Positions 4,607 through 30,503 are shown, counted from the stretch's first letter. The stretch is 57,074 bases of DNA from an uncultured Verrucomicrobiota bacterium (GCA_903953565.1 CAJBKE010000066.1:1-57074), one strand, 5' to 3'. Program-made: numbers and translations. The notes: generated from the sequence alone by a model not told the origin.

Positions 4607-5185
4607 TCATACGCGGACAAGCTGTTTGATCTGCATCCACGTAGCCGCAGACTCCGCTCCCCCGGCTACGCGGTGGGACGAACCCGGGTCGAAGAGAATT
4701 TTGCGTGTCACTTCCGGAAAGTCAGGATGCTCAAGAATATCCGGCAAGTCATCGACAAAAACTCTGCAATGCAACGAATCGATTCGGGCGATTTTGCATG
4801 CTTTCGACTCTTCGAGGAAAACACCGGTCACAGCAAGTCCACTTTCCATGATCCAAGAGCGCGCGTGAGCATGGAGATCGTGCTTTTTCCCGGCGATGGG
4901 ATGCCGCGTGCGGTGACTGACTACGAAAATCTCACAGCCCGAAGACAGCCAATGAAGCAACGTGTCTTCGGCTCCGGGAAAAGGCTTCGCTTCGCTCATC
5001 AAGGGACCGTAAAGCTCGCCTTGGAGTTTCGTCCACTCTCCCTCCTCGCCCCGCGCCCGCAATTCTTCGCGCAGCGCGACCTTCGGGTCGCTTTGCGGCA
5101 ACGATACACCATAGGCAGCACACATCCGTTCCAGCGGCAAACGGTAATCCGCGAGAGTGTTGTCGAGGTCTAGACCGATTCTCAT
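4607..5185 (-). CDS. HAD-family hydrolase, 5'-nucleotidase-like
   Basis: Short (192-residue) HAD phosphatase. Motif I is seen as LDLDNTLAD at residues 5-13, with the nucleophile and acid Asp pair. A threonine-containing stretch (VVSHRT) follows, and the acidic motif IV appears as VFVDDLPD. The DxDNT form of motif I and the small size fit the NT5C-like 5'-nucleotidase group. The substrate is unknown; inside a sugar locus it could be a sugar phosphate or nucleotide. It lies 6 bp downstream of the GT2 gene at 5192, so it is probably co-transcribed with it. A gap of about 140 bp separates it from the next gene. Confidence 0.75.
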   Translation of the reverse strand: MRIGLDLDNTLADYRLPLERMCAAYGVSLPQSDPKVALREELRARGEEGEWTKLQGELYGPLMSEAKPFPGAEDTLLHWLSSGCEIFVVSHRTRHPIAGKKHDLHAHARSWIMESGLAVTGVFLEESKACKIARIDSLHCRVFVDDLPDILEHPDFPEVTRKILFDPGSSHRVAGGAESAATWMQIKQLVRV

Positions 5186-6597: not shown

Positions 6598-7752
6598 TCA
6601 TGGAAGCACAAGCTCAAGACCTGACGCCGACAGGCGCTCGTTAACGGCTCTGGCAATCACGGGGGCCAATGGGACGTAAACCTTTGCCTTCGGCCTGACT
6701 TGAGCCGGGGCGATGATGGGCTTGCCAAAATGGGAGCGACCGATGCGACCCGGATCCTCATCGACATAAAAGTCAATCGCGTCCGGTCCGACTACACCAG
6801 TAAGCCAATTCGCGGCAATGGATGTTCCGAAAACTCCGAACCTCCGCCCGCTGGCAGCGAGGCGCTTGGCGCCGGCAGCCACTGACTCCAGCCATTGGAT
6901 GTGCTTTTGGACCAATCCGATGATCGATTCGATTTCACTTGGACTCCTGCGCAACCGCGTATCCTGTTTGGTCCGGCCGGCCACCAGACTGATCTCTTTG
7001 GGAATCCAATCACAATCGGAACCATGCAAAAGAGGAGCTTCCATTGCTCGCATCATACTCACCAACTGGTCCGCGGTGAAGTGAGATGCGTGGTCCGCCA
7101 CCAGTAACTCGAACGGGTTTACTTCGCAGGACGGCACTTCGATGAATATTGCTCCCGTTTGTTCCAATGATCGCTCCAAGACCCGATATGCGGCCGACGG
7201 CCCCTGCAAATGCTCGAATACATGGAGCAAGGTGATCAAATGGTAGCGACCCGCTAGTTTGTCGAAGCCGAAGGAAAAGAAATCTCGCACTCCGGGGATA
7301 CTGCGCACCTCCCGTTCGTAGGTGGCGGCAGATTCAAGGCCGAAGAGATCCCAATTCGGCAGGTGCAGACTGCAGGCACGCAAAAATCCGCCGCTGCCGC
7401 AACCGATATCAACCAAGTTGCCCCTTGCTGGCAGCAATTTGCGCCGCAAAAGCTCAAGGAGCAATTTTTCCGACCTCTGGATAGCGGCGCCTGTGAGCGG
7501 ATCGAAAATCGCCTGATCAACGCCCGAGGACTGATAGTTGCTCTCGTAGCTCGCATAAATCTCCGAGCACTCCGCCATCCATTTGTCATCCGTGTTCGCT
7601 TGTATCAACCCACAGCTGCGGCAGACCTGCAGAGAGCCTCCGGCGGGCCATGGCTTGCAGTCAGATGTGACTCTTCCGAGGGAAGCATATTCCGGGAAAA
7701 CATGTATCTCCCGGCATCCGCAGTCGTGGCAGCCTAGTGAAAATTTTTTCAT
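6598..7752 (-). CDS. Class I SAM methyltransferase with zinc-binding N-terminus, C-methyltransferase-like
   Basis: The 384-residue protein follows the three-part plan of the sugar C-methyltransferase group (TylC3/NovU-like). An N-terminal Cys-rich zinc site has CHDCGC and a later CRSCGL. A class I SAM domain begins with LVDIGCGSGGFL and has LLHVFEHL downstream. The C-terminal domain carries FGVFGTSIAANWL, in the position where the family has its second Rossmann-like motif. Family members methylate a carbon of 4-keto-6-deoxy nucleotide sugars, or relatives of these. It is one of four such proteins in this locus. The exact substrate cannot be told. It starts 22 bp downstream of the SDR gene at 7775. 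Confidence 0.8.
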   Translation of the reverse strand: MKKFSLGCHDCGCREIHVFPEYASLGRVTSDCKPWPAGGSLQVCRSCGLIQANTDDKWMAECSEIYASYESNYQSSGVDQAIFDPLTGAAIQRSEKLLLELLRRKLLPARGNLVDIGCGSGGFLRACSLHLPNWDLFGLESAATYEREVRSIPGVRDFFSFGFDKLAGRYHLITLLHVFEHLQGPSAAYRVLERSLEQTGAIFIEVPSCEVNPFELLVADHASHFTADQLVSMMRAMEAPLLHGSDCDWIPKEISLVAGRTKQDTRLRRSPSEIESIIGLVQKHIQWLESVAAGAKRLAASGRRFGVFGTSIAANWLTGVVGPDAIDFYVDEDPGRIGRSHFGKPIIAPAQVRPKAKVYVPLAPVIARAVNERLSASGLELVLP

Positions 7753-7774
7753 TGCTTTATGGCTGGCAGCAAAT

Positions 7775-8656
7775 TCACGCCGCCTTGGCCCACTCCTCAG
7801 CCAGTTCAGCGATCACCGATGAGGGTTGCTGCGGCTGGATGCCAAGCAATCGGCTGGTCCGCGCCATACCGAGAGCGCTATGACTCGGCTTGAAGAGCAG
7901 ATCAACACCTCGCGCCACAGCGGTTGCAGGACGCACACCTCCTCTTTTGAAGTAGCGTGCCAGCAACTCTGCGAAATCGAAGTAAGACAAGTCGTCCTCC
8001 CCCGAGAGATGAAAGACCCCTCCTTCGGCTGCTTCGCCAATCCTGAGGAGACCACGGGCTGCGTAGCGGCAGGAGATCGGCGAAAACACAAAATCCGTAA
8101 AAGCTTCGATCTTCTTTCCGGAAAGAAGATCTTTTGTCCACATCGGGAAAGGAGCCACAGACGGAGTCAGGACCCTCGTCAAACGTACAACGGAAGCGTT
8201 GCGTGCCCCGCCGCGCTGGGCTGCAGCGGCGAGGAAATTCCGCTCTGCTTCGGCTTTCTGGCGAGAATAGGCCAACTTGGGAGCAACCGGTTCATCTTCC
8301 CCGCCATGGTCACGATCTCCACCGAACACCGAATTAGTCGACAGAAAGATAGTGCGCGCGCCGTTCCTGCCAAAACGGTCCAGCAACTCGCAAATGGCGG
8401 TCACATTGACAACACGGCTTTGCGGATTGCCTTCACACTCTTTCAAATTGGATATCGCGAGACAGCCGATAACAACGCTCGGCTTCCAAGCGAAGCTTTC
8501 TTCCCACGTCTGGGGCTGCAAAAGATCGAGGTTGATTTTCCCGCCGCAAGCATCCGTGCGGCGAGAGGTTCCGAGACATTCGAATCCAAGCTGCCTCGCC
8601 TCTGAAAGCACGCAGCTGCCCACCGAACTGTCCGCCCCCAGCACCAAAATCCTCAT
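7775..8656 (-). CDS. SDR sugar-nucleotide reductase, RmlD-like
   Basis: Extended SDR of 293 residues. The N-terminus MRILVLGADSSVGS is a Rossmann NAD(P)-binding loop. FLSTNSVFGG and YSRQKAEAE supply the catalytic Ser/Thr region and the YxxxK pair. Size and layout resemble dTDP-4-dehydrorhamnose reductase (RmlD) more than dehydratases, so reduction of a 4-keto sugar nucleotide is the likely reaction. Its first codon overlaps the stop of the cupin gene at 8653 (ATGA). It could act on a keto sugar after a C-methyltransferase, but the true substrate is unknown. Confidence 0.8.
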   Translation of the reverse strand: MRILVLGADSSVGSCVLSEARQLGFECLGTSRRTDACGGKINLDLLQPQTWEESFAWKPSVVIGCLAISNLKECEGNPQSRVVNVTAICELLDRFGRNGARTIFLSTNSVFGGDRDHGGEDEPVAPKLAYSRQKAEAERNFLAAAAQRGGARNASVVRLTRVLTPSVAPFPMWTKDLLSGKKIEAFTDFVFSPISCRYAARGLLRIGEAAEGGVFHLSGEDDLSYFDFAELLARYFKRGGVRPATAVARGVDLLFKPSHSALGMARTSRLLGIQPQQPSSVIAELAEEWAKAA

Positions 8657-9192
8657 GCTTTCGTAGCTAGGTAGTTGTCGACGACCCTCTTGAGGTTGGT
8701 GAGCCAGTCGCTGACTGCGTTGAAGTTATTTTCATCTGGAGACCAAGGAGCAAATTGCGTGTCCTCGCGCCGGAAAGGCCCAGTAGAAACTTCGTGGAAC
8801 ACGAAGACCTCGCTGCGGACGAAGAGACAGTGATAAACCGGCTCCTCGATGCGGTAGTAAAAGGGCAGCCCTGTATGTTCAGGTCCCATGCGCCAAGCAT
8901 CGATGATCTCCCCATCCTCGTCGAAAAAGACCGCATCGGCTTCGCCGCGGAGGCAGAGGCCCGATTCCGCTTTGTTTTGGTGCCGGTGGGGACGGATATA
9001 TGTGCCCCGCCTCAGGGAAATAATCATCTCCTGCGGACTGCTTGGAAGCCCGGTGTGACAACAGATGCGGGACCTCTTCCGTTCGACCACGCCAGAGCTG
9101 GCCTCGATCGCGGCAAGATCCCCGCTATCCAAACGTTTGAAGCGACTTGTCACGCTGTAAACACTGTCGTCGCGTCGGTCTAAGTTTTTCAT
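8653..9192 (-). CDS. WbuC-type cupin metalloprotein
   Basis: A 179-residue cupin-fold protein. Its core has RRGTYIRPHRHQNKAES, with the His/Glu metal-binding residues, and later EVSTGPF...FAPWSPDE. This pattern is the one seen in WbuC proteins of O-antigen clusters. WbuC function is not well established. A role in a sugar modification step is inferred from context. The gene is coupled to the RmlD-like SDR by an ATGA overlap. A 79-bp gap separates it from the C-methyltransferase gene upstream. Confidence 0.75.
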   Translation of the reverse strand: MKNLDRRDDSVYSVTSRFKRLDSGDLAAIEASSGVVERKRSRICCHTGLPSSPQEMIISLRRGTYIRPHRHQNKAESGLCLRGEADAVFFDEDGEIIDAWRMGPEHTGLPFYYRIEEPVYHCLFVRSEVFVFHEVSTGPFRREDTQFAPWSPDENNFNAVSDWLTNLKRVVDNYLATKA

Positions 9193-9271
9193 GAGATCTG
9201 AAATGGCGAGCAGGCCCTGCCAGCCAGTCTTTTGTCGCGGTCAACCACAGAGAAACGATGTGCATGCAGTT

Positions 9272-10435
9272 TCATGAGATAGCGAACGCGCTGTCCGGGA
9301 AAATCGATACAAACTCCAGATCAGGGTGAACTTGCTTGAGACGCACCGCCACGCGTTGCTCGATATTGCGGTTCACACTAAGGACGATCAAACCCACCCC
9401 TTTTTCTCCGATTTGGGCGGTAGGCAGAATCGGCAAGTTGCTGCCGGGAAGACAGAGACCAGCCTTGGCGGGGTCATCATCGAACGCGAAATCAAAAAAC
9501 CGGCCCAACCGATAAAGATTGATAAAGAGGTTGCCCATGTGGCCTGCCCCAAGAAGCGCGATGGTCTTGTGAGTGCTCTTCAGGCGCTCAAACTTCTCCA
9601 TGTAGGCTTCCCTACGGCCGGAAAACTCAGCGACAAAAGGCCCGATCAATTCCGGATCCTGCAAGCTCTCGGCCGACGGAGTTGCAACTTGGCGACCAGC
9701 TTTCCGAGCCAGAGCAACGAGAAGGTTTGTGTCGTTGGCCCTGAGAGGCTGGCACCATTCTACTTCAAATCCGTGTCGAAGCAGAGTCTCCTGCAATGTC
9801 TGCTCCGTGAAATAGTTGGCATGGCTTTCCCACAGCATAAGTGGGTCGCGCTTCTGCAGGAAGGGTGCGGAGGACGGCACTTCAAACAAGATTCTCCCGC
9901 GCGGCGCGACACGACTGCCCAGAGAAGCTAAAAACATTTCGAGTTGCCGCACATGATCGAGAACATGCCTCGCCACAATGAAATCGACGCCTGGTTCGGG
10001 ATGCTGGGCTTTGCCTGCTTCAAAGTTCCCGACCACCGACTCAAGGTGGGTCTGCTTGGCCAGATCCCCATCGCTTTCGCTACCGCTGGTCCAACCGCGC
10101 TTCCGGAGACGCGCCACCAGGGATATATCCAAGGCAGAGACGCCGCCCACCCGACCAGGTGCCTCCCCGATAATGTCTGCCACTTTTGCGCAGACCTCAT
10201 CGAGATGCTCCTCTGGCTCTTTGTAAAAAACCCACTTTGGCACGATCTCCTGTAGATGCTTTGCGGGAAAGGGATCGACCAGTTGCAGCAAGCCGCAGGA
10301 ACGACATGAGCCAAAGACCAACCCATTCAAAGGCGGCGTGTCGCCCGGCCGCAGGTATCCGTTGGACACCGGCAGTTCGCCGGCGTGCAGCAGGATCGAC
10401 ACCCGCTCACAACCGCAAGATCGGCACGTCGCCAT
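9272..10435 (-). CDS. C-methyltransferase-like protein with degenerate SAM motif
   Basis: This 387-residue protein has the family's zinc-binding N-terminus (CRSCGCE and a later CRSCGL) and its C-terminal domain, recognised by IALLGAGHMGNLFINL. In the middle, however, the usual glycine-rich SAM motif is replaced by ALDISLVARLRKRG, while the later segment ARHVLDHVRQL is kept. SAM binding may therefore be weak or lost. It could be a divergent enzyme, or a partner of the full-length C-methyltransferase whose stop codon directly precedes its start (TGA then ATG with no gap). Product assignment is by family only. Confidence 0.7.
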   Translation of the reverse strand: MATCRSCGCERVSILLHAGELPVSNGYLRPGDTPPLNGLVFGSCRSCGLLQLVDPFPAKHLQEIVPKWVFYKEPEEHLDEVCAKVADIIGEAPGRVGGVSALDISLVARLRKRGWTSGSESDGDLAKQTHLESVVGNFEAGKAQHPEPGVDFIVARHVLDHVRQLEMFLASLGSRVAPRGRILFEVPSSAPFLQKRDPLMLWESHANYFTEQTLQETLLRHGFEVEWCQPLRANDTNLLVALARKAGRQVATPSAESLQDPELIGPFVAEFSGRREAYMEKFERLKSTHKTIALLGAGHMGNLFINLYRLGRFFDFAFDDDPAKAGLCLPGSNLPILPTAQIGEKGVGLIVLSVNRNIEQRVAVRLKQVHPDLEFVSIFPDSAFAIS

Positions 10436-11680
10436 TCAGCCAGTCACCTCAAGCTTCGGCACGCACGTTATCCACTTGCCGCCGCCGGCCACAAAGCCGG
10501 GGTTCGCGGCAATGATGTTCTTCGCGTGAACCCAAGCGAAAACGAAAAGATAGTCGACAGGCCTTTCTGCCAAAGAGGAAACCGGCAAGACTTCTATGCC
10601 ATAACCGGCACTGAACCTCCCGACCTTGTCGGGATGGTTGTCCAGGATGAAGTCGATGTCATCCGCGATGCCCAGTTGCGCGATCAAGGTGGTTCCGCTG
10701 CGGGCGGCGCCGAAACCGCCGAAAGTCTTGCCCTCGTTCTTCGCCTTTTCGACGAAGGCTTTTGTCTCGTCGCACAGCTTGCGCAGCATTCTCTCGAAGT
10801 CCTGCAGCCGCCCCAGAGTGTTCAATTGGCTTTCCGACTCAGCGCGGAGAATTGCCGCGACGCCCTTGTCCACCGCGTAAGGCGCGCCGGCTTTTTTGGC
10901 GCTGACAATGATTGACCCGCCTTGGATCCCCACGCGCTTCACGTCGACAATTTCCATTGCATTGCGCCGCATGAAACGGGCAAGGGGTGTCACCGCGTGA
11001 TATGAAAAATGCTCGTGGAAAATCGTGCCCAACAGGCACTTTTCGAGGACGTCCTGCAGATAGGACACCTCGAACATGAATACGCCGTCGGCTCGCAGCA
11101 AGTCGGATACTCCCGCGGCAATAGTCTGAAGGTTGTCAGAGTGGGCAAAGACGTTGTTCGCCACCACAAGCTTGGCTTCACCGTGGGACGCCTTGATCTT
11201 TGCCGCCACTTTCTCGTCGAAGAAGGCGACGATTGTCTCCACACCTGCCGCAACAGCTTCCGCCGCAATCGTGCTGGCCGGATCAACCCCGAGCACCTTG
11301 GCACCGAGCTTTTGAAATTCTTTCAGCAGAGTGCCGTCGTTGCTGCCGATCTCCACGACGAGATCCCCCCTTTGCAAACCCCACTTTTCCCAAGCCTCTT
11401 TGGCATATTCCTGGAAGTGCCTGATGATAGCTTCCGTTTGTCCCGAGCGATACGTGTAGTGCTCGTCAAAGAGAAACCCGGCTTCGACCAGATCCAGCAG
11501 CTGCACATGACCGCAGTCGCGGCAACGATACAAGTCGAGCGGCGAGTCGGGAACGCAGCGCGCCTCTGCACGCGTCGCGCCATATTTCTCCGCCACGGGA
11601 GTCCCGTGAATGTGGCAACCCAACTCGAGTTCGGGAGAGTCACAAAGCCGGCACACTGTTCTTTTGGTGATTTTTATCAT
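10436..11680 (-). CDS. Sugar C-methyltransferase-like SAM enzyme
   Basis: A 414-residue class I methyltransferase of the TylC3/NovU-like group. CRLCDSPEL and CRDCGHVQ form the N-terminal zinc site. VVEIGSNDGTLL is the SAM-binding loop, followed by FEVSYLQDVL. FGGFGAARSGTTL marks the C-terminal domain. The frame is open upstream to 11743, but the ATG at 11680 is preferred: it overlaps the stop of the Nudix-like gene as ATGA and places the Cys motif close to the N-terminus, as in relatives. It probably methylates a keto sugar nucleotide for the surface polysaccharide. The next gene follows with no spacer. Confidence 0.85.
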   Translation of the reverse strand: MIKITKRTVCRLCDSPELELGCHIHGTPVAEKYGATRAEARCVPDSPLDLYRCRDCGHVQLLDLVEAGFLFDEHYTYRSGQTEAIIRHFQEYAKEAWEKWGLQRGDLVVEIGSNDGTLLKEFQKLGAKVLGVDPASTIAAEAVAAGVETIVAFFDEKVAAKIKASHGEAKLVVANNVFAHSDNLQTIAAGVSDLLRADGVFMFEVSYLQDVLEKCLLGTIFHEHFSYHAVTPLARFMRRNAMEIVDVKRVGIQGGSIIVSAKKAGAPYAVDKGVAAILRAESESQLNTLGRLQDFERMLRKLCDETKAFVEKAKNEGKTFGGFGAARSGTTLIAQLGIADDIDFILDNHPDKVGRFSAGYGIEVLPVSSLAERPVDYLFVFAWVHAKNIIAANPGFVAGGGKWITCVPKLEVTG

Positions 11681-12405
11681 TTTTTTAATGCTGATTGTTC
11701 TTTTTCGAAGCAGCCCAGAAAGCAAGCCTGGGCCACCGCGCAAATCGTCGGGGCATCGGTGATCTCACCCTGTGCAATCATCCGCTTCAGTTCTGCAGGG
11801 CTGACCAGTGCAACCTCATCGATACCCTCCGAGCGCGCGGGCTGTCCAACTTGTCCGATTTCAGCCAAGAACGTATCGATTCCGGAATCCAGCAGGTTGT
11901 TTATCGGAACAACGTGGCCTAAGCGGCGAAGCGCGAGCAGGTTGGCGCCGATTTCTTCCATCAGTTCCTCCTCGATTGTTTTTTCAAACGACGAACCGGG
12001 CGATGATCCGCCGCGAGGACATTCCCATGACCAAGCTGCAAGAGCGTGCCGGTAATGCTTCACCAAGACATATTCCTCGCCCAGACGAGGCAAAATAACG
12101 ATCCCCGAGACCGGCCCGGTCTTCCACAAGATGCGATGGTGTATCGCGGGGCGACCATCGGAAAACCGCACGGCATCGCGGAGAAGGATGATGTAGGGAT
12201 CCTCGTAGTAGATGCCGGCCTGCGCCCACTCCGGATCGAGCCCGCTTTTGCCGTAAATCGAAGCCACTTCGCTCTCGACTGCCTCGATCTCAGCGCGCCC
12301 AAGACGCAATATTCCCTTTGCGGGATCGACGGAAAAATAACGAGGATGCGCTTTGGCAAAGGCCAAATATTCATCCAACACGGACGATTGCTGAACGTTT
12401 TTCAT
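11677..12405 (-). CDS. Nudix-like hydrolase with altered Nudix box
   Basis: A 242-residue protein whose central region has the Nudix fold pattern. The box reads GGSSPGSS...EELMEEIGA. The Glu cluster EELMEE, which would bind metal, is kept. The first conserved Glu of the box appears as Ser and the conserved Arg as Glu. Nudix enzymes cleave X linked to a nucleoside diphosphate, for example nucleotide sugars. Here the activity may be altered. The frame is open upstream to 12768, but the ATG at 12405 fits the fold and avoids overlap with the kinase-like gene at 12462. It is coupled by ATGA to the C-methyltransferase gene downstream. Confidence 0.75.
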   Translation of the reverse strand: MKNVQQSSVLDEYLAFAKAHPRYFSVDPAKGILRLGRAEIEAVESEVASIYGKSGLDPEWAQAGIYYEDPYIILLRDAVRFSDGRPAIHHRILWKTGPVSGIVILPRLGEEYVLVKHYRHALAAWSWECPRGGSSPGSSFEKTIEEELMEEIGANLLALRRLGHVVPINNLLDSGIDTFLAEIGQVGQPARSEGIDEVALVSPAELKRMIAQGEITDAPTICAVAQACFLGCFEKEQSALKK

Positions 12406-22484: not shown

Positions 22485-23153
22485 TTACTCGAAATAAATA
22501 TAACTATGGTCGCCGGTGTAGCCGGTTTGTCTGAACCACCATTCCCACTCGTCCGGCGCTAAAAAGGCGCGGCAGGTCAGTTGCCAATAGAGCAGGTTAG
22601 CTTTCTCTGACTCATTGCGCCAGCTCTCGACGCACAGATATCGATGTTGCTTGCCGACGCGCATCATCTCGCGAAGGGCGCGGTCGAGGTCGTAACAAGG
22701 AAGGTTGTGGAGGGTGTTGATGGAGAAAACGAAGTCGAACTCCGCGTCTGCAAAAGGCAACTCGGACGCCTTGCCCTCAACCACGAGGCTCCTGATCTCC
22801 GGTTTGGCGTGGTCGATCGCGTAGCGGCTGACTTCCAAGCCCGTTACCTCCAATCCCGGAACAGCCTGCGTCAGGTCGTAGAGAAGAAAGCCTTTGCCGC
22901 AGCCGATATCGAGGACCTTATCTCCTGCTTTGAGGCCGTAGTGGCTCGCCATGAGGTCGGCCACTTTGCGCCAGCGGCCATCGTAATTCATGCCGCCGTA
23001 ACCGGTCCGTCGGTCACCATCCCAGTAGTCGACGCCCCATTTCAGAGCCAACTCTGCCGCTTTCGCCTTCGGGAATTCCTGATCATTGACCCGCGCCAGA
23101 TAGTCACGCGTGGTCGCCTTGTGGATCGGCGCAATGAAATCGACGTAGGACAT
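22485..23153 (-). CDS. Class I SAM-dependent methyltransferase
   Basis: A 222-residue methyltransferase. VLDIGCGKGFLLYDL is motif I, GLEVSRYAID the following acidic strand end, and FVFSINTLHNLP the motif IV/post-motif region. A stretch before the SAM fold, GVDYWDGDRRTGYGG, recurs in small methyltransferases of polysaccharide clusters. It may O- or N-methylate a sugar. It lies 5 bp downstream of the transketolase C-half, so it is probably part of the same unit and may act on that pathway's product. Confidence 0.8.
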   Translation of the reverse strand: MSYVDFIAPIHKATTRDYLARVNDQEFPKAKAAELALKWGVDYWDGDRRTGYGGMNYDGRWRKVADLMASHYGLKAGDKVLDIGCGKGFLLYDLTQAVPGLEVTGLEVSRYAIDHAKPEIRSLVVEGKASELPFADAEFDFVFSINTLHNLPCYDLDRALREMMRVGKQHRYLCVESWRNESEKANLLYWQLTCRAFLAPDEWEWWFRQTGYTGDHSYIYFE

Positions 23154-23158
23154 GCTCT

Positions 23159-24082
23159 TTAGCTAAGTGCGGACGCGAGACGCTGGGTTATGTTCTCCAC
23201 TGTCAGTCCAGCCCACTCCCGGGCAGACGGCTGATGCGTTGTCGCGTGAAGAAACTCGTCCGGCGTTCCGAAGGTGACGAGCTTTGCTTTGGCCTGTGCG
23301 GGTTGGGCAGCAAGCCACTCGGCGGTTGCCGTCCCGAGGCCGCCGAGCACGGAGTGTTCTTCGAAAGTGGCTACGACTTTGGCCGATGCGAAAACTTCCG
23401 CCAGCAACTTCGTGTCCAGAGGCTTGAGCGATCCCATGCTGGCAACGCCGCAGCTGACACCCCGGCTGCCCAGTTGCGTTGCCGCTTCCATGGCCAGCGG
23501 CAAGGTGTTGCCAAGTGCGAGAATCCATACCTCTTTCCCTTCGCGAAGGCGCAAGGCTTTCCCGATTTCAAAATTGGGCTCCGTTTCGTGGACGACCGGC
23601 TCGCCCTTTTTTCCGATGCGGATGTAGACCGGCCCGGGATATTCCAGGGCGGCATGAAACGCCGGGCGCAGTTCTTTTTCGTCCCCTGGCGCGAGGACAG
23701 CCAGACCCGGGATCAAGCGCAGCATGCCCATGTCTTCGACCGAGTGGTGCGTGGATCCGAGCGATGCATAGGAAAGTCCGGCACCGGTGCCGACAAGAAT
23801 GACACGTTGATGATGGTAACCAAGGTCGAGGCGGATCTGCTCGATGACCCGATAGGTGAGGAACGAGGCGATGGTGTAGCAGACTGGACGCAATCCGCTC
23901 GCCGCAATGCCGGCGGCAACGCCCACCATGTTGGCTTCGGCCACGCCGCAGTTGAAGAAGCGGCCCGGTGCGACCTCTTTGAATTTGTCGAACAAGCGGT
24001 TTCCGATGTCACCCGAAAGCAGAACGATGTCCTCGCGCTGCTGCGCGATCTTGGTGATTTCGTCCGCAAATGCGTTCCTCAT
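23159..24082 (-). CDS. Transketolase-like protein, C-terminal half
   Basis: The 307-residue pyrimidine-binding and C-terminal portion of a split transketolase. It has FNCGVAEANMVGVAAG with the Glu that activates thiamine diphosphate, SLGSTHHSVEDMGMLR, and a C-terminal domain with VATFEEHSVLGGLG. It should form a heterodimeric enzyme with the N-terminal half encoded directly upstream. The ATG at 24082 overlaps that gene's stop as ATGA; a longer frame to 24310 only runs into the upstream gene. Because it sits between sugar-activating and sugar-modifying genes, a special two-carbon transfer on a polysaccharide sugar is plausible. Confidence 0.9.
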   Translation of the reverse strand: MRNAFADEITKIAQQREDIVLLSGDIGNRLFDKFKEVAPGRFFNCGVAEANMVGVAAGIAASGLRPVCYTIASFLTYRVIEQIRLDLGYHHQRVILVGTGAGLSYASLGSTHHSVEDMGMLRLIPGLAVLAPGDEKELRPAFHAALEYPGPVYIRIGKKGEPVVHETEPNFEIGKALRLREGKEVWILALGNTLPLAMEAATQLGSRGVSCGVASMGSLKPLDTKLLAEVFASAKVVATFEEHSVLGGLGTATAEWLAAQPAQAKAKLVTFGTPDEFLHATTHQPSAREWAGLTVENITQRLASALS

Positions 24083-24903
24083 ACCAAACCAAGCTCCTTG
24101 CGTGCCGCTGCGAGCTCTTCCGCGTTGGGAATCCGATAGTGCCAGTTGTTGTCGTCTTCCATGAACGACACGCCGCGTCCCTTGATAGTGTGAGCGACAA
24201 TCGCCAAAGGCTTGGTTCGGTCCGGCAGCTCGCCACAGGCCAGGGCGGTGCGGATTTCGGCGAAGTCGTGTCCGTCGACTTCGTAACTCTCCCAACCGAA
24301 GGCCTCCCATTTGTCACGCATTGGGGCCAGCGCCATGACTTCCTCACTGCGGCCGGTGGCCTGCCATTTGTTGTAATCGACGAGCACGGTGAGTGAACCG
24401 AGCCTTTGGGCCGCGGCAAACATGGCAGCTTCCCATACACTGCCCTCATTGCACTCGCCGTCGCTGAGCAGGACCACCGTGCGATAGGCACGCTTTTGGA
24501 TCCTTGCGGCCAAGGCCATGCCAACTCCCACTGACAAACCGTGACCGAGAGAACCGGTGGCCCATTCAACTCCCGGTGCACAGTCCGGAGCAGGTTGCTC
24601 GGCGAGGGCAGCACCGTCTTTGGCATAGTCCGCCAAAAGTTGCGGCGAGAAGAAGCCGCGGCGCCACAGGCTGACGTAGAGGGCGGGAGCCGCATGCCCT
24701 TTGCTCAGGATAAATCTGTCGCGATCGGGAGAGTCGGCCTTGGCCGGATCGATGCGCAGAAAGCTCCAGTAGAGCGCGACAAGCAAATCGATGCACGAAA
24801 GCGACGAACCGAGATGCGGCGTCTTGGCACGATGCGACAGGCCGATGACTTCACCGCGCAGCTCCGCCGCGATGCGCTCCAGCTTCTTGTGGTCGATCGT
24901 CAC
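24079..24903 (-). CDS. Transketolase-like protein, N-terminal half
   Basis: The 274-residue thiamine-diphosphate-binding portion of a split transketolase. Substrate and cofactor residues are seen in KTPHLGSSLS, LSKGHAAPALY and TGSLGHGLSVGVGMA. LLSDGECNEGSVWEA is the magnesium/diphosphate motif, with Ser in place of the usual first Gly of GDG. Together with the C-half it could move a C2 ketol unit between sugars. It is coupled by 4-bp overlaps on both sides, to the C-half and to the nucleotidyltransferase-kinase fusion. This argues for a pathway-specific enzyme rather than the general pentose-phosphate one. Confidence 0.9.
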   Translation of the reverse strand: MTIDHKKLERIAAELRGEVIGLSHRAKTPHLGSSLSCIDLLVALYWSFLRIDPAKADSPDRDRFILSKGHAAPALYVSLWRRGFFSPQLLADYAKDGAALAEQPAPDCAPGVEWATGSLGHGLSVGVGMALAARIQKRAYRTVVLLSDGECNEGSVWEAAMFAAAQRLGSLTVLVDYNKWQATGRSEEVMALAPMRDKWEAFGWESYEVDGHDFAEIRTALACGELPDRTKPLAIVAHTIKGRGVSFMEDDNNWHYRIPNAEELAAARKELGLV

Positions 24904-26447
24904 GCGGGATCGCGATTGAGCAGGGACATTCCGCTTTTGAGCAAGACGGCTTTCGAGATCGGTTCGCGGTTGCCGACGATTTTCACGGCCTGCGCGCCGG
25001 CGAGCTGTCCGAGGAAAGTCGTGAGATCAACTGGCAGGCCATTCCTTGCGGCCAAGGCCATGACCGAAAAGAACGCGTCCCCTGCCCCGATCGTGTCGGT
25101 GATATCGTCGCCCAGCGGCGGGCAGGCGGCATTGCTGCCCTCGGCGTCGACACCGATGGTTTTTACGGCTCCGCGGGTGAGCCATCCGGCGCGGGCGTTG
25201 AGGTGTCCGCGGAGCTTGTCCAACTCGGCTGCGAAGTCGACGTGGCGGTGTCCGCACGAGAGAAGCATCTCTTGTTCATCCAACGAGAAGACGTCCGCGC
25301 GCCGGTATTGACGCGAGATGATGTTGAAGCCGTGGTTGTTGGAGTTGGTCTGGCAGTTCAGCGCGAGAAAAACACCACTGTCCTGCAGGAAATCACGGAC
25401 GGCTTGCTGCATAAGTCCATGACCAAAGTCGGCGAGAACAACGAGGTCGGCGTTTTTGATCTCGGCTTCGAGTTTACCCAGCACACGATCGGTGACAGCA
25501 TGCTTCGGCGCATCGGCGTTGATGAAGTTGACCGAAAACAATTTGCCGAGGTCCTTGCCTTCGCTGACCGGCTCGACGTAGCGCTGCTTGATAATGGAGA
25601 CAAAGTCCGGATCGCGGACCGTTGCGTCGTCCTCGGTTGGCATGAACATGCGCAAGGTCGGTTCGAGCCAGCCTTCGGTGCCGAGCAGTGAGACTAGCCG
25701 GACGTTCGGTGTGAATTGTTTGATATGGCGGTAAACAGCGAGGGCACCTCCGGCTTGGGCTTCTTCCTCGAGATAGCGCCCGGAAATGATGCGGTTCTTC
25801 GAGGTGAGTCCCTGAACTTTGACGAAGGAATATTTGTCGAAAATGGTGTCGCCGACAACGAGCACGCGGAGACCGGCGAAGGCAGCGACGGCATCGGCCA
25901 GATTCTGCGGAGAGACGCGCGCGGCCAGTTGTCCGCAGAATTCGGAAACTTCGGGATTAGCCGTTTCGAAATGGCGGTTCAGCAGCCGCGTAGAGCTGAA
26001 GACCACATCGCCGAGATAGCGGACCTCGCCGCCATGCTTTTGCACCGTGGCAACGTCGTCGTGGATGTTCCCGGTGACGTCGTTGGCGGAGTCCACGTAT
26101 TCTGTGCCCTTGCAGTAGATGCTTGGTTTGACCGTTTCAATCGCCTCGACAGCTGCGGTGTGCGGAACGAGCACCACATAATCAACAGAGGACAGCGCGG
26201 CGAGGGTGCGGGCGCGGAGCGCGTCGTTGAAATACGGACGCCCTGGACCTTTGTTGACGTGTTTTTCGTCCGTGACGGTGACGACAAGGACATCGCCGAG
26301 CTTCTTGGCGTCTTCAAGGTGAACGATATGGCCGGGGTGGACGAGATCGAAGGTGCCGTGGCACTGCACCAAGCGCTTGCCTTCGCCGCGAAGCTTGTCG
26401 AAGAGCGCGGGCGCTTCGGCGAAGGGAATGATTTTGGTGGAGGACAT
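24900..26447 (-). CDS. Nucleotidyltransferase-PfkB kinase fusion, reversed HldE order
   Basis: A 515-residue bifunctional protein. Residues 1-140 form a cytidylyltransferase-like domain, with HGTFDLVHPGH at 30-40 holding the HxGH catalytic motif. From about residue 190 it is a PfkB/ribokinase-type sugar kinase, starting VLVVGDTIFDKY and ending with DTIGAGDAFFSVMAL, which includes the GAGD anion hole. HldE makes ADP-heptose with the kinase first and the transferase second; here the order is swapped. It probably phosphorylates a sugar and activates it with a nucleotide. The start at 26447 (MSSTKII) is chosen over 26477, which lies in a repeat arm. It shares a GTGA/ATGA-like overlap with the transketolase gene. 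Confidence 0.85.
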   Translation of the reverse strand: MSSTKIIPFAEAPALFDKLRGEGKRLVQCHGTFDLVHPGHIVHLEDAKKLGDVLVVTVTDEKHVNKGPGRPYFNDALRARTLAALSSVDYVVLVPHTAAVEAIETVKPSIYCKGTEYVDSANDVTGNIHDDVATVQKHGGEVRYLGDVVFSSTRLLNRHFETANPEVSEFCGQLAARVSPQNLADAVAAFAGLRVLVVGDTIFDKYSFVKVQGLTSKNRIISGRYLEEEAQAGGALAVYRHIKQFTPNVRLVSLLGTEGWLEPTLRMFMPTEDDATVRDPDFVSIIKQRYVEPVSEGKDLGKLFSVNFINADAPKHAVTDRVLGKLEAEIKNADLVVLADFGHGLMQQAVRDFLQDSGVFLALNCQTNSNNHGFNIISRQYRRADVFSLDEQEMLLSCGHRHVDFAAELDKLRGHLNARAGWLTRGAVKTIGVDAEGSNAACPPLGDDITDTIGAGDAFFSVMALAARNGLPVDLTTFLGQLAGAQAVKIVGNREPISKAVLLKSGMSLLNRDPA

Positions 26448-26454
26448 TTGTTTA

Positions 26455-26530
26455 ACCACGGATAACACGGATTTCACGAATAGTAGCAGAGGCTATCTTC
26501 CCCATCACTGTCATCCGTATAATCAGTGGT
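26455..26530. repeat. Imperfect inverted repeat between fusion gene and SDR gene
   Basis: The left arm ACCACGGATAACACGGAT (26455-26472) and the right arm ATCCGTATAATCAGTGGT (26513-26530) pair at 15 of 18 positions, with a 40-base spacer. It fills the whole gap between the SDR gene at 26547 and the nucleotidyltransferase-kinase gene. It could fold into a long hairpin in the transcript. A related half-site is at about 14856-14866. Confidence 0.65.
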
Positions 26531-26546
26531 CCTCCTTTTCAGACTC

Positions 26547-27581
26547 CTAACGGGCCAGATAAGCGAGGCAACCAGTATCGCGTCCGACTTCCATGAATTT
26601 CATGTTGTAGTGCTCGGCAGCATCGATGTCGGGAAACTGACTGGACTCGAGAACTTTGCGCAGATTGGCGACCTCCTGCTTGATGCTGCTCACGGGCTTG
26701 TAGCCCAAGTCGTTCAAGATTCGATCGGAAGAGATGTGGTAGTCGCGGTGGTCGGTTGTATCGGTCACTTCAATTTTGACGTTCAGATCGGACAACTCGG
26801 ATTGGATGATCTTGGCAATATCGATCACCTTGTGGTTTTCGAAACCGAAGTTGAAGGTCCGGCCATTGATTTTGTCCACCGGCGCTTCGACAAGAATGCC
26901 GTAGAGGTTGATCATGTCGGTCATGCCGACATTCGGGCGGCGCTGCTGTCCTCCATGAACTGTGATGACCTTTTTGCGCAGCGCGTCAGCGGTGAGCTTG
27001 TTCACCGTCAGATCGAAACGCTGGCGCGGCGAGTAACCACAAACCGTGGCGGGGCGCACATTGACCGCACAAAACTCGGGACCGCAGGCGGAAAGGACGA
27101 GCCATTCCGAGAGAGCCTTGTATTTCGAGTAGTAGGTCAGCGGCTCGGGTTCGAGGCGTTCGTTGATTTCCGACTCGGTCCGTGCGCCGAACACGCTTGA
27201 CGAGGAGGCATTGATGAAACGCTTCACGCCGGCCTCTTTGGCCAACGCGAGCAGCATACCGACGGCATCAAAATTCACCTGCCGCGTGAGGACTTCATCG
27301 ATGTCGCCAGTCGGATCGTTGGAGATTGCCGCCAGATGGATGACAGCGTCGCGTCCGGCAACGGCTTCGCGCACTTTGGCCGCATCGCGCAGGTCGCCGC
27401 GAACGAGACTGAAACGCTTTTCATACTCGGGCCAGTTCGGGTCGGCCTTGAGGGCCTCGAGCCCCGCCTCCGTGTAGAGCATGAGGTCGAGGACGCGAAC
27501 ATCGTGTCCGAGCCCGAGAAGATGTGGGACGAGTCGGCTACCAACGTAGCCGAAACCGCCTGTTACGAGGATTTTTGACAT
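26547..27581 (-). CDS. NAD-dependent epimerase/dehydratase (extended SDR)
   Basis: A 344-residue extended SDR. The N-terminus MSKILVTGGFGYVGS gives the Rossmann loop. HLAAISNDP, FINASSSSVFG and the catalytic pair in YSKYK are in place. A substrate-side block YSPRQRFDLTVN, with an Arg and aromatic residues, is typical of sugar-nucleotide SDRs of the UDP-glucose 4-epimerase or CDP-/GDP-sugar type. The reaction, epimerisation or dehydration, is not certain. It follows the next SDR gene by 6 bp and precedes the nucleotidyltransferase-kinase fusion. It is a good candidate to act on that enzyme's product. Confidence 0.8.
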   Translation of the reverse strand: MSKILVTGGFGYVGSRLVPHLLGLGHDVRVLDLMLYTEAGLEALKADPNWPEYEKRFSLVRGDLRDAAKVREAVAGRDAVIHLAAISNDPTGDIDEVLTRQVNFDAVGMLLALAKEAGVKRFINASSSSVFGARTESEINERLEPEPLTYYSKYKALSEWLVLSACGPEFCAVNVRPATVCGYSPRQRFDLTVNKLTADALRKKVITVHGGQQRRPNVGMTDMINLYGILVEAPVDKINGRTFNFGFENHKVIDIAKIIQSELSDLNVKIEVTDTTDHRDYHISSDRILNDLGYKPVSSIKQEVANLRKVLESSQFPDIDAAEHYNMKFMEVGRDTGCLAYLAR

Positions 27582-27587
27582 AAAGAT

Positions 27588-28595
27588 TTAGCGTTTATGA
27601 ACGTAGTTCGCAGGTTGTCCCCGGAGAACATCAAGATTCGCGTCGATCCAGCGTTTGGTGTCGGCGATGCCCTCCTCCAGAGAGACGCGATCCTGCCATC
27701 CGAGCTTCGTGCGCGCGAGACTTGCATCGAGCAAATAGGCGGAATCTTTACCGGGGCGGTCGGCCACGATTTCGGCGAAGTCTTCGAACTTCACGCCGGC
27801 TTGGTCGCACATGAGGGCGACAAGGTCGCGGATGGAAATGGTGCGCTTGGTCGAGAGATGAAGAACCTGACCCGGCTCGCCGCCCAGCGCGGCGCGAAGG
27901 GTTCCGTCGGAGACATCGTCGATGTGGATAAAGGAGCGCACCGAGTGTCCGCCGCCATGGAGTTGCAGCTTTTGACCCAGGGCGAGGAAAAGAAGCGTGC
28001 GCGGGACGATACGGTAGAGCTGCTGCCCGGGGCCGAAGACATTGGCCGCGCGGGTGAAGACGACGGGGAAGTTGTATTGGCGGATGAATGTTTGCAGGTG
28101 CAAATCGCACGCGGCGCGGGACGCGGCATAAGGCGTGCTCGGATTGAATGGTGCATCTTCGCGAACGTCGCCGGAGCAACTGCCGTAGACTTCAGGCGTG
28201 GAGACGTGGACGTATTTTTTGAGACCGGGCATTTTGCGGAGTCCGTCGTGCAGACGCACATTGGCCACGACATTGGTCTGATACCAATGATCTGGGTGCT
28301 CCCAGCTTTCCGCGACCATGCTTTGCGCGGCGAAGTTGACCACGTAGGGCGCGCTGAAATCGGCGATGGCGTCGAGCAACTCGGCGGTGTGGAGATTGAG
28401 ATCAAGTTGAGCGAAGCGGAAACGCGAGAGTTCTTCCGGGGAACGTTGCCAGCGATACGGAAGAAAAACGGGATGCGCTTCGGCCGAACGGCTGGTGCCG
28501 AGAACTTCCCAACCTTCGCGCAGGCAGTGCGAGACGAAGCTTGCGCCGGAAAACGAGTTGCTGCCGATGACAACCATGCGCTTGGGATCACTCAT
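27588..28595 (-). CDS. Extended SDR with Arg in place of catalytic Lys
   Basis: A 335-residue SDR related to dTDP-glucose and GDP-mannose dehydratases. It has IGSNSFSGASF as the nucleotide loop, NFAAQSMVAESW, and HVSTPEVYGS, which matches the dehydratase T(D/P)EVYG block. The catalytic tetrad position reads YAASR instead of YxxxK. Later blocks such as ANVFGPGQQLYR and SFIHIDDV are well kept, so it is not a decayed gene. It may work as a dehydratase or epimerase with altered chemistry. It overlaps the upstream gene by 8 bp and lies 6 bp before the SDR at 26547. Confidence 0.75.
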   Translation of the reverse strand: MSDPKRMVVIGSNSFSGASFVSHCLREGWEVLGTSRSAEAHPVFLPYRWQRSPEELSRFRFAQLDLNLHTAELLDAIADFSAPYVVNFAAQSMVAESWEHPDHWYQTNVVANVRLHDGLRKMPGLKKYVHVSTPEVYGSCSGDVREDAPFNPSTPYAASRAACDLHLQTFIRQYNFPVVFTRAANVFGPGQQLYRIVPRTLLFLALGQKLQLHGGGHSVRSFIHIDDVSDGTLRAALGGEPGQVLHLSTKRTISIRDLVALMCDQAGVKFEDFAEIVADRPGKDSAYLLDASLARTKLGWQDRVSLEEGIADTKRWIDANLDVLRGQPANYVHKR

Positions 28596-29422: not shown

Positions 29423-29983
29423 CTACGAGACAGCGCGCCCCGAGAGCGGGTGCACTTTGCCCGGCACCACGCGGCCGAGCGTGACTTCGACTTCGCGCTG
29501 GGTCCCGAGCAGATCAAGCAGCACAGCCACGCGTTCCTTGGCCGGCATGATGCGCGTCACAACGGCGCGCAAGCCTTTGAAAGGACCATCCAAGACGGTC
29601 ACTTCATCTCCGGGCGCGACCTGAGGGGCAATTTCCACCACCTCGTTGTCGCGCGCGAATTGCCGCAATTCCTCTATGATTTCCTCGCCGACCACAGCAG
29701 GTTGTCCGCCGAAGCCGACAACTTTGGTCACTCCCATGGACGAAGCCACGAGACGGAAGTGGGTCCGGTAAGGAAAACGCGCGAACATGTAGCCGGGAAA
29801 GAGTGCTTCTTCGAACCACTTCTTGCCGCTCACCGTGGCGCGCTGGAAGCGCAGCATGGGACAAAATACCTCCAGCGAAGCTTGCGAGCGGAGGAATTGT
29901 GCGGCGAGCTTCTCGTGTTTGGGCTGCGTCTTGAGGCAGAACCAAAGAAGCTCGGTGGATTCTATGACGGGCACGCGGTCCAT
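29423..29983 (-). CDS. NusG-like transcription antiterminator (RfaH/UpxY type)
   Basis: A 186-residue specialised NusG paralogue. The NGN domain has FCLKTQPKHEKLAA and LFPGYMFARF. The C-terminal KOW domain has VAPGDEVTVLDGPFKGLRAVV. Paralogues such as RfaH, UpxY and LoaP attach to RNA polymerase and let it read through long polysaccharide or similar operons. Its place as the second gene of a locus of about 30 kb fits that role. The ATG at 29983 is used, since relatives start just before the aromatic FCLKT block. A run-in frame to 30106 is ignored. It lies 7 bp after the regulator gene. Confidence 0.85.
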   Translation of the reverse strand: MDRVPVIESTELLWFCLKTQPKHEKLAAQFLRSQASLEVFCPMLRFQRATVSGKKWFEEALFPGYMFARFPYRTHFRLVASSMGVTKVVGFGGQPAVVGEEIIEELRQFARDNEVVEIAPQVAPGDEVTVLDGPFKGLRAVVTRIMPAKERVAVLLDLLGTQREVEVTLGRVVPGKVHPLSGRAVS

Positions 29984-29990
29984 GGGCGGG

Positions 29991-30503
29991 TCAAAGTTTG
30001 AGGAACGTGGAAGCGAGGGGTATGAGGCGGCGGGCTTTGTTCTGCCATGATTGCAGGCGTTCGACACGCCCGGAAAGTCCGGCGGGCGCGCCGTTCCCAG
30101 GATCATCCACTACCGTCCGCAGGCGGTCGAGTCGCCGGTCCGCATGCTCAAGTTTGAGGACAAGCTGGTCGCGCAGGAAACCACGGATGAGAGCAGGCAG
30201 ATCGGCCTCGGCCTCGTAGTAGTCTTTGCGGTCCCCGGGCAGGTGTGTGACGCGGACCGCCCCTGCGCCGCGCAGCATGCGCAGCCCCTGACTGGCCGAG
30301 CCCTTGCTCATGGCGAGTCGGGCCACGAGATCGTCGAGGGTGAGCTTTTCCCCGGTGGCGAAAAGAAGGCCGTAAATTTCGCCGACCGAGCGCGGAAGGG
30401 AGAGGTATTTGCCCAGATGGACGAAGAATTCGACCACCTCCCGCTCGGCCGGTGCCGATGCGCCGGCGACAACGGGGCGCGGTGCTGTTCTGGCTCGGGA
30501 CAT
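29991..30503 (-). CDS. GbsR/MarR-type transcriptional regulator
   Basis: A 170-residue winged-helix regulator. The DNA-binding region is seen as GEIYGLLFATGEKLTLDDLV...SKGSASQGLRMLRGAGA, followed by a wing with PGDRKDYYEAE. This matches GbsR-type members of the MarR superfamily. The C-terminus is helical and probably forms the dimer interface. As the first gene of the minus-strand locus and divergent from the polymerase gene at 30618, it probably regulates both and itself. Two short palindromes lie in the divergent gap, one right at its start codon. Confidence 0.8.
   Translation of the reverse strand: MSRARTAPRPVVAGASAPAEREVVEFFVHLGKYLSLPRSVGEIYGLLFATGEKLTLDDLVARLAMSKGSASQGLRMLRGAGAVRVTHLPGDRKDYYEAEADLPALIRGFLRDQLVLKLEHADRRLDRLRTVVDDPGNGAPAGLSGRVERLQSWQNKARRLIPLASTFLKL

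Follow-up and report, generated by a model that had tools for sequence, protein, structure and literature searches.

A conserved Verrucomicrobiota cassette of a reversed HldE-like fusion and a split transketolase: a proposed route to a branched activated sugar

What does a sugar-activating enzyme with its two domains in reversed order do next to a transketolase (TK) divided between two genes? The question is raised by a 57,074-nucleotide stretch of DNA (the window; GCA_903953565.1, CAJBKE010000066.1:1-57074) from an uncultured Verrucomicrobiota bacterium, whose genome comprises 2.86 Mb in 70 contigs. At 22485-26447 a nucleotidyltransferase-kinase fusion, the two TK halves (TK-N and TK-C) and a methyltransferase form a single minus-strand run. 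The initial annotation had described these four genes as joined in part by 4-bp overlaps, and this is correct: GTGA (24903-24900) links the fusion to TK-N and ATGA (24082-24079) links TK-N to TK-C. The answer that we favor, at roughly even confidence, is that these genes make an unusual activated sugar for a surface polysaccharide, with TK transferring a hydroxyacetyl unit to the keto form of an activated heptose-type sugar. The genes are listed in their 5' to 3' order; SDR denotes short-chain dehydrogenase/reductase and ThDP thiamine diphosphate.

28595-27588, minus strand: SDR resembling dTDP-glucose 4,6-dehydratase, candidate keto-sugar maker (TIGR01181, 181.6 bits)
27581-26547, minus strand: SDR of the NAD-dependent epimerase/dehydratase family, conserved partner (Epimerase, 126.5 bits)
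26447-24900, minus strand: fusion of an N-terminal nucleotidyltransferase and a C-terminal PfkB heptose-kinase-like domain, 515 residues (rfaE_dom_II and rfaE_dom_I matches; fold)
24903-24079, minus strand: TK-N, ThDP pyrophosphate domain, 274 residues, GTG start (Transketolase_N, 125 bits)
24082-23159, minus strand: TK-C, Pyr and C-terminal domains, 307 residues (Transket_pyr, 121 bits; Transketolase_C, 79 bits)
23153-22485, minus strand: class I S-adenosylmethionine (SAM) methyltransferase of ThDP-containing fusion cassettes (Methyltransf_11, 68.5 bits)
22453-21977, minus strand: PDDEXK_3 gene
21885-20806, minus strand: Zn-dependent alcohol dehydrogenase (ADH), conserved partner (ADH_zinc_N, ADH_N)
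20795-19518, minus strand: three-domain sugar C-methyltransferase, accessory gene (Methyltransf_14, 171.5 bits; Methyltransf_13, 56.6 bits), followed by a further GDP-mannose-dehydratase-like SDR

A conserved cassette with an exchangeable ThDP enzyme

A scan of one genome per species (84,980 species) identified at least 580 loci with relatives of the fusion. The best 80 belong to Verrucomicrobiota, Cyanobacteria, Bacillota, Elusimicrobia, Omnitrophota, Bacteroidota, Chlamydiae and Nitrospira, and plasmids of Azospirillum oryzae and Solidesulfovibrio carbinolicus carry copies. The size of this family rules out the fusion as a unique reversed oddity; the initial annotation was right about the transferase-first order and the HldE likeness of both halves but not about their peculiarity, as this order is normal in the family. 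The nearest named relative of the locus, in a Chthoniobacter flavus metagenome-assembled genome (L057), has a 95% identical fusion and the same gene order. Because order is kept there and the gene set recurs in dozens of loci, the arrangement is not due to chance.

Neighbors were surveyed in 99 fusion loci (the window, sampled genomes, plasmids and named contigs), with presence called by tblastn. A split TK was found in 46 loci, a pair resembling the alpha and beta chains of pyruvate dehydrogenase E1 (PDH-E1) in 25, and neither in 28. The two enzymes replace each other: within the stretches examined, none of the 71 ThDP loci has both (p 7e-9; this p-value and that for the methyltransferase below ignore shared ancestry). 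On the Azospirillum plasmid, for example, the order is SDR, SDR, fusion, SIS isomerase, SDR, E1 alpha, E1 beta and two aminotransferases. E1 pairs act on 2-oxo acids and yield no isomerizable sugar phosphate or aldose precursor. Since E1 cannot supply such a phosphate, the slot common to TK and E1 is most likely a C2 transfer downstream of activation.

The methyltransferase follows the ThDP enzyme, being present in 43/71 ThDP-positive and 1/28 ThDP-negative fusion loci (p 6e-8). It was found in 14 of 289 Verrucomicrobiota genomes, each of them among the 17 with a full-length fusion, and in 13 it lies within 14 kb of the fusion (hypergeometric 3e-21 for the overlap of genomes, not corrected for kinship). 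One genome (G178) has a second copy of the cassette methyltransferase (contig C12, 8948-9604, locus L203; 54% identity) near a radical SAM gene and an aminotransferase relative; no fusion or TK was seen in the 18 kb read around it.

The other partners recur as well. A GmhA-like SIS isomerase is found in 68 of the 99 loci, the methyltransferase in 44, the family of the SDR at 26547 in 49 and a GmhB-like gene in 31. By SDR type, 47 loci have the SDR-epimerase family and 31 the family of the SDR at 27588 (SDR27588), with both in 3. ADH is present in 26 loci and a radical SAM gene (rSAM7) in 41, never together; ADH partners TK and E1 variants alike and is accompanied by the methyltransferase in all full-length loci (19/19). 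The neighboring SDRs and the Zn-dehydrogenase, which the initial annotation had placed in the pathway, are conserved partners. rSAM7 possibly is an anaerobic substitute for the Zn-dehydrogenase. A BtrN-like dehydrogenase standing in for ADH is no more than a lead: rSAM7 is exclusive with ADH, yet its similarity to BtrN is non-significant (E 0.04). A second radical SAM gene, rSAM11, travels with rSAM7 in 39 loci (Bacillota loci L085-L130). Sets of fusion, isomerase and SDR that have no ThDP enzyme also exist (e.g., L085, L110 and L119), which argues that the activation module works alone and that the ThDP enzyme is an added step, not a supplier.

The fusion and the split transketolase

The fusion starts at ATG 26447 or, in a longer version of 525 residues, possibly at GTG 26477. 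In the latter, rfaE_dom_II covers residues 26-166 (97.6 bits) and rfaE_dom_I residues 198-503 (81 bits). HldE/RfaE has the kinase domain first and the adenylyltransferase second. The AlphaFold model of the fusion has a mean pLDDT of 88, and the best solved fold for its kinase half is HldA (4e84; Z 33.3 over 305 residues, root-mean-square deviation 2.5), with pseudouridine kinase second (29.0). The HxGH motif of the nucleotidyltransferase, an SST segment and the GAGD motif of the kinase are conserved (33 sequences for HxGH and GAGD). At the position of DPKG in Escherichia coli HldE, or DPNP in the organism's own HldA, there is a conserved Asn-rich segment (N364, Q366, N368, S369, N371, G373 and N375).

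The likeness to HldE with GmhA and GmhB extends to the two domains, the catalytic motifs and the HldA-like fold, and possibly to the GmhA-like and GmhB-like partners of the family. In contrast to HldE, the fusion has the opposite domain order and another segment in place of DPKG, and it stands beside a ThDP enzyme in a polysaccharide locus of an organism that keeps separate HldA and GmhB genes (contig C19, beside a KdsB-like gene). Its scores are 122.9 bits against the curated NCBIfam equivalog cut-off of 521 for HldE, 97.6 against 181.5 for domain II and 81 against 345 for domain I. By sequence, the fusion is an HldE-like enzyme but not HldE. It most likely activates a heptose-type sugar, because the best domain matches of both halves are to RfaE/HldE, the HldA fold leads the next family by 4 Z units, and fusion loci carry the GmhA-like isomerase (68/99) and the GmhB-like gene (31/99).

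The TK is divided so that the ThDP-pyrophosphate domain is on one chain and the Pyr and C-terminal domains are on the other. The nearest solved chain to TK-N is the split-chain TK 6yak (232 bits) of Carboxydothermus hydrogenoformans, a general TK in an organism that has no full-length TK (PMC7661550). The two enzymes share the split point and the ThDP residues; the window pair differs in belonging to a cassette-linked subfamily and in a genome that also encodes a canonical full-length TK (contig C4), which rules it out as the housekeeping enzyme. TK-N retains the equivalents of H26, H66, D155, E160, N185 and H261. TK-C retains those of E411 and H473 and has H461 changed to G, D469 to L and R520 to K. 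In the split TK, SDG replaces GDG. In cassette TKs, then, the ThDP and donor-site residues are intact and the acceptor-phosphate residues altered.

Verrucomicrobiota relatives of TK-N with at least 54% identity were all in fusion loci (7/7, the window included). Of 20 examined at 48% or below, 18 had other contexts; the remaining two were L176, a cassette TK whose fusion is on another contig, and G230 (see below). The initial annotation had named a general TK found apart from the fusion as grounds for abandoning its proposal. For this TK subfamily the outcome favors the proposal, given the close relatives and the separate full-length TK; more distant split TKs (48% or below) are mostly found without the fusion. 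In a midpoint-rooted tree made by one method, cassette TKs formed three well-supported clades apart from most others: the window clade (18 rows, 99/95), a second one (5 rows) and a Bacillota clade (19 rows). Such separate clades make it probable that ThDP enzymes joined the cassette on more than one occasion. The cassette TKs of L076 and L055 are on long branches outside the three clades. L055, on the S. carbinolicus plasmid pDCAR1, has two separate split-TK pairs beside the fusion, SIS, pseudaminic-acid genes and several radical SAM genes. Its place in the tree and its neighbors put the window TK in a cassette-linked subfamily, separate from general metabolism.

Proposed branching reaction and its alternatives

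Computation gives the genes, the integrity of their catalytic residues, their co-inheritance and the exchange of TK and E1; from these we infer the following steps. A GmhA-like isomerase would first form a heptose phosphate. No SIS or GmhB gene lies near the window cassette; a cassette-type SIS isomerase, 51% identical to the one in the Azospirillum cassette, is encoded on contig C55. The kinase half of the fusion would phosphorylate C1, a GmhB-type phosphatase would act next, and the transferase half would give the nucleotide sugar, as homology to the heptose enzymes suggests. A keto group would then be made on this sugar by one or both neighboring SDRs, the Zn-dehydrogenase or a combination of them. 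The best solved relatives of SDR27588 are dTDP-glucose 4,6-dehydratases, and its family has a T-P-E motif and a Y...K/R site. In the central step, TK-N and TK-C would assemble as one ThDP enzyme that removes a hydroxyacetyl group (a C2 ketol unit) from hydroxypyruvate or a ketose phosphate and places it on the keto group. The product would be a sugar with a C2 branch and a tertiary alcohol. Where a sister cassette has the PDH-E1-type pair in the TK slot, that pair would add acetyl from pyruvate. Finally, a reductase may reduce the branch ketone and the cassette methyltransferase may methylate the product before transfer to the polysaccharide.

We assign the central step to TK because PDH-E1-type enzymes occupy the same slot and because E1 and split-TK precedents exist. 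The surroundings are those of a branching enzyme: fusion, 4,6-dehydratase-like SDR and ADH in one run, and interchange with E1. The cassette is real and conserved across loci; the base sugar, its nucleotide (ADP or CDP), the keto position and the final product are putative. The unusual activated-sugar pathway of the initial annotation is retained to the extent that the cassette is conserved; the part given to TK is revised to a predicted C2 branching of an activated keto sugar, in view of PDH-E1 in the same slot.

Several observations weigh against this proposal. The fusion is below its curated equivalog cut-offs, and so are the isomerase (SIS relatives, 93 bits as GmhA; cut-off 209) and the phosphatase (HAD relatives, 167 bits as GmhB; cut-off 178). 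The invariant Asn-rich kinase segment may indicate a substrate other than heptose 7-phosphate. SDR27588 has T-P-E where RmlB has T-D-E; dehydration is therefore not assured. TK is known to prefer aldehydes, and a ketone acceptor has not been shown in vitro for any TK (PMC12247030). The altered acceptor-phosphate residues were rejected as proof that the acceptor carries no phosphate: the changes are non-discriminating, since many unrelated split TKs outside cassettes also are without H461, D469 and R520. The disregard of shared ancestry in the p-values counts here too, as does G230, which combines E1 in its cassette with a divergent split TK that lies ≈ 10-12 kb away from the fusion and beyond the stretch counted.

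An alternative is that the Zn-dehydrogenase oxidizes a terminal hydroxyl to an aldehyde, to which TK or E1 adds C2, so that the chain is extended to a linear higher-carbon sugar. Aldehydes are the normal acceptors of TK, and the conservation of ADH with both ThDP variants, always with the methyltransferase in full-length loci (19/19), fits this reaction. However, known ThDP branching on nucleotide or glycosidic sugars uses 4- or 3-keto acceptors, and the cassette contains a 4,6-dehydratase-like SDR; we consider chain extension unlikely. Also rather unlikely is a division of labor in which two unrelated sugars enter the same polysaccharide, a nucleotide sugar from the fusion and a different one from the TK/methyltransferase module. 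The modules are indeed several kb apart or on different contigs in some loci (G056, L054 and L055), but the methyltransferase occurs only in fusion-carrying genomes (14/14, sampled Verrucomicrobiota) and the window genes interleave and overlap.

TK normally forms sedoheptulose 7-phosphate, on which GmhA acts. TK could thus supply it, or a related ketose phosphate, to the GmhA-like isomerase and the fusion, whose gene overlaps that of TK-N. This supply role is improbable: the E1-type enzymes in the same slot are unable to form that kind of substrate, some loci with a complete fusion-isomerase set have no TK, and a housekeeping TK is encoded in the genome. Split TKs are common elsewhere, but an accidentally placed general pentose-phosphate enzyme is already contradicted by the canonical TK on contig C4 and by the cassette-linked clade of the window TK, and we give it practically no credence.

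Accessory genes and relation to known systems

Two further genes of the window accompany the TK variant.

13511-12462, minus strand: APH-type kinase, partner of the TK variant only (PF01636, 41.8 bits)
5185-4607, minus strand: small HAD-like protein of the kind accompanying the APH kinase (34% identity, E 7e-32, to L049 12074-12694)

The APH kinase is present in 17/46 TK loci, 0/25 E1 loci and 0/28 loci with neither enzyme, and the small HAD family occurs only with TK among the 99 loci. The protein at 4607-5185 has no Pfam or NCBIfam match. In L066 (15349-17001) the small HAD and the APH kinase are fused in one protein of 550 residues, an argument that a kinase and a phosphatase act jointly in TK-type cassettes.

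The three-domain C-methyltransferase family of the 19518 gene is found in 10/99 fusion loci. More genes of the sugar C-methyltransferase type are present in the region 6598-11743 (9272-10435 and 10436-11683; 6598-7752 has a methyltransferase domain only), adjoining RmlD-like and cupin-like genes. Given these genes, the locus is probably a source of two or more C-methylated sugars. The PDDEXK_3 (GxxExxY) gene that separates the methyltransferase from the dehydrogenase resembles an insertion passenger; relatives are found inside fusion loci L057, L065 and L070. The gap before the fusion (26448-26535) contains a repeat-like stretch (CCGTGTTATCCGTGG type) with two weaker copies elsewhere in the genome. 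A gene at 29423-30106, on the strand of the SDR run and upstream of it, encodes a NusG-type protein, comparable to polysaccharide operons with a dedicated antiterminator.

Carbon branching of sugars by ThDP enzymes is known from a few O-antigens and from actinobacterial antibiotics. YerE, of the O-antigen sugar yersiniose, likewise uses ThDP to add a C2 branch to a nucleotide-linked keto sugar destined for a surface polysaccharide, but it is a single chain of the decarboxylase-type superfamily in a CDP-hexose pathway. C2 branching by E1, known or proposed, is reported for avilamycin, paulomycin, aldgamycin and kibdelomycin (PMC4425429, PMC12247030); the pairs AviB1/B2 and Pau11/12 are known or proposed to put C2 branches on keto sugars (PMC4425429), and KbDH acts on ketones in vitro (PMC12247030). 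Pairs of this PDH-E1-like (alphaKADH2) kind fill the TK slot in 25 sister loci, whereas those of the antibiotics transfer acetyl from pyruvate, not a ketol unit, to a hexose-derived keto sugar. Split-gene TKs have been proposed to branch the sugars of miharamycin and amipurimycin, where they too lie beside a keto-forming oxidoreductase; a 2025 review names 13 candidate branching TKs, all from Streptomyces and none assayed (PMC12247030). Those TKs belong to Streptomyces natural products; the cassettes described here belong to surface polysaccharide loci of many phyla and include a heptose-type module.

We found no matching report of this gene combination, or of a C2-branched heptose, in the open-access literature. 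As far as the open-access literature shows, the cassette is undescribed; what is novel is that ThDP enzymes replace each other so widely on one heptose-type module within polysaccharide loci. Tentatively, and with less confidence than for the branching reaction in the window, we suggest a widespread pathway in which reversed HldE-like fusions activate a heptose and interchangeable ThDP enzymes graft a C2 branch, giving new nine-carbon branched nucleotide sugars for bacterial surface polysaccharides. If this is true, a TK would for the first time be shown to use a ketone as acceptor, and such a role would for the first time reach beyond the natural products of Streptomyces; the cassettes are ready gene sets with which ketone use by TK can be tested. 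A single heptose-type cassette on which TK and E1 are swapped, in phyla that include Verrucomicrobiota, Cyanobacteria, Bacillota and Elusimicrobia, predicts a large class of undescribed branched or higher-carbon sugars on bacterial surfaces.

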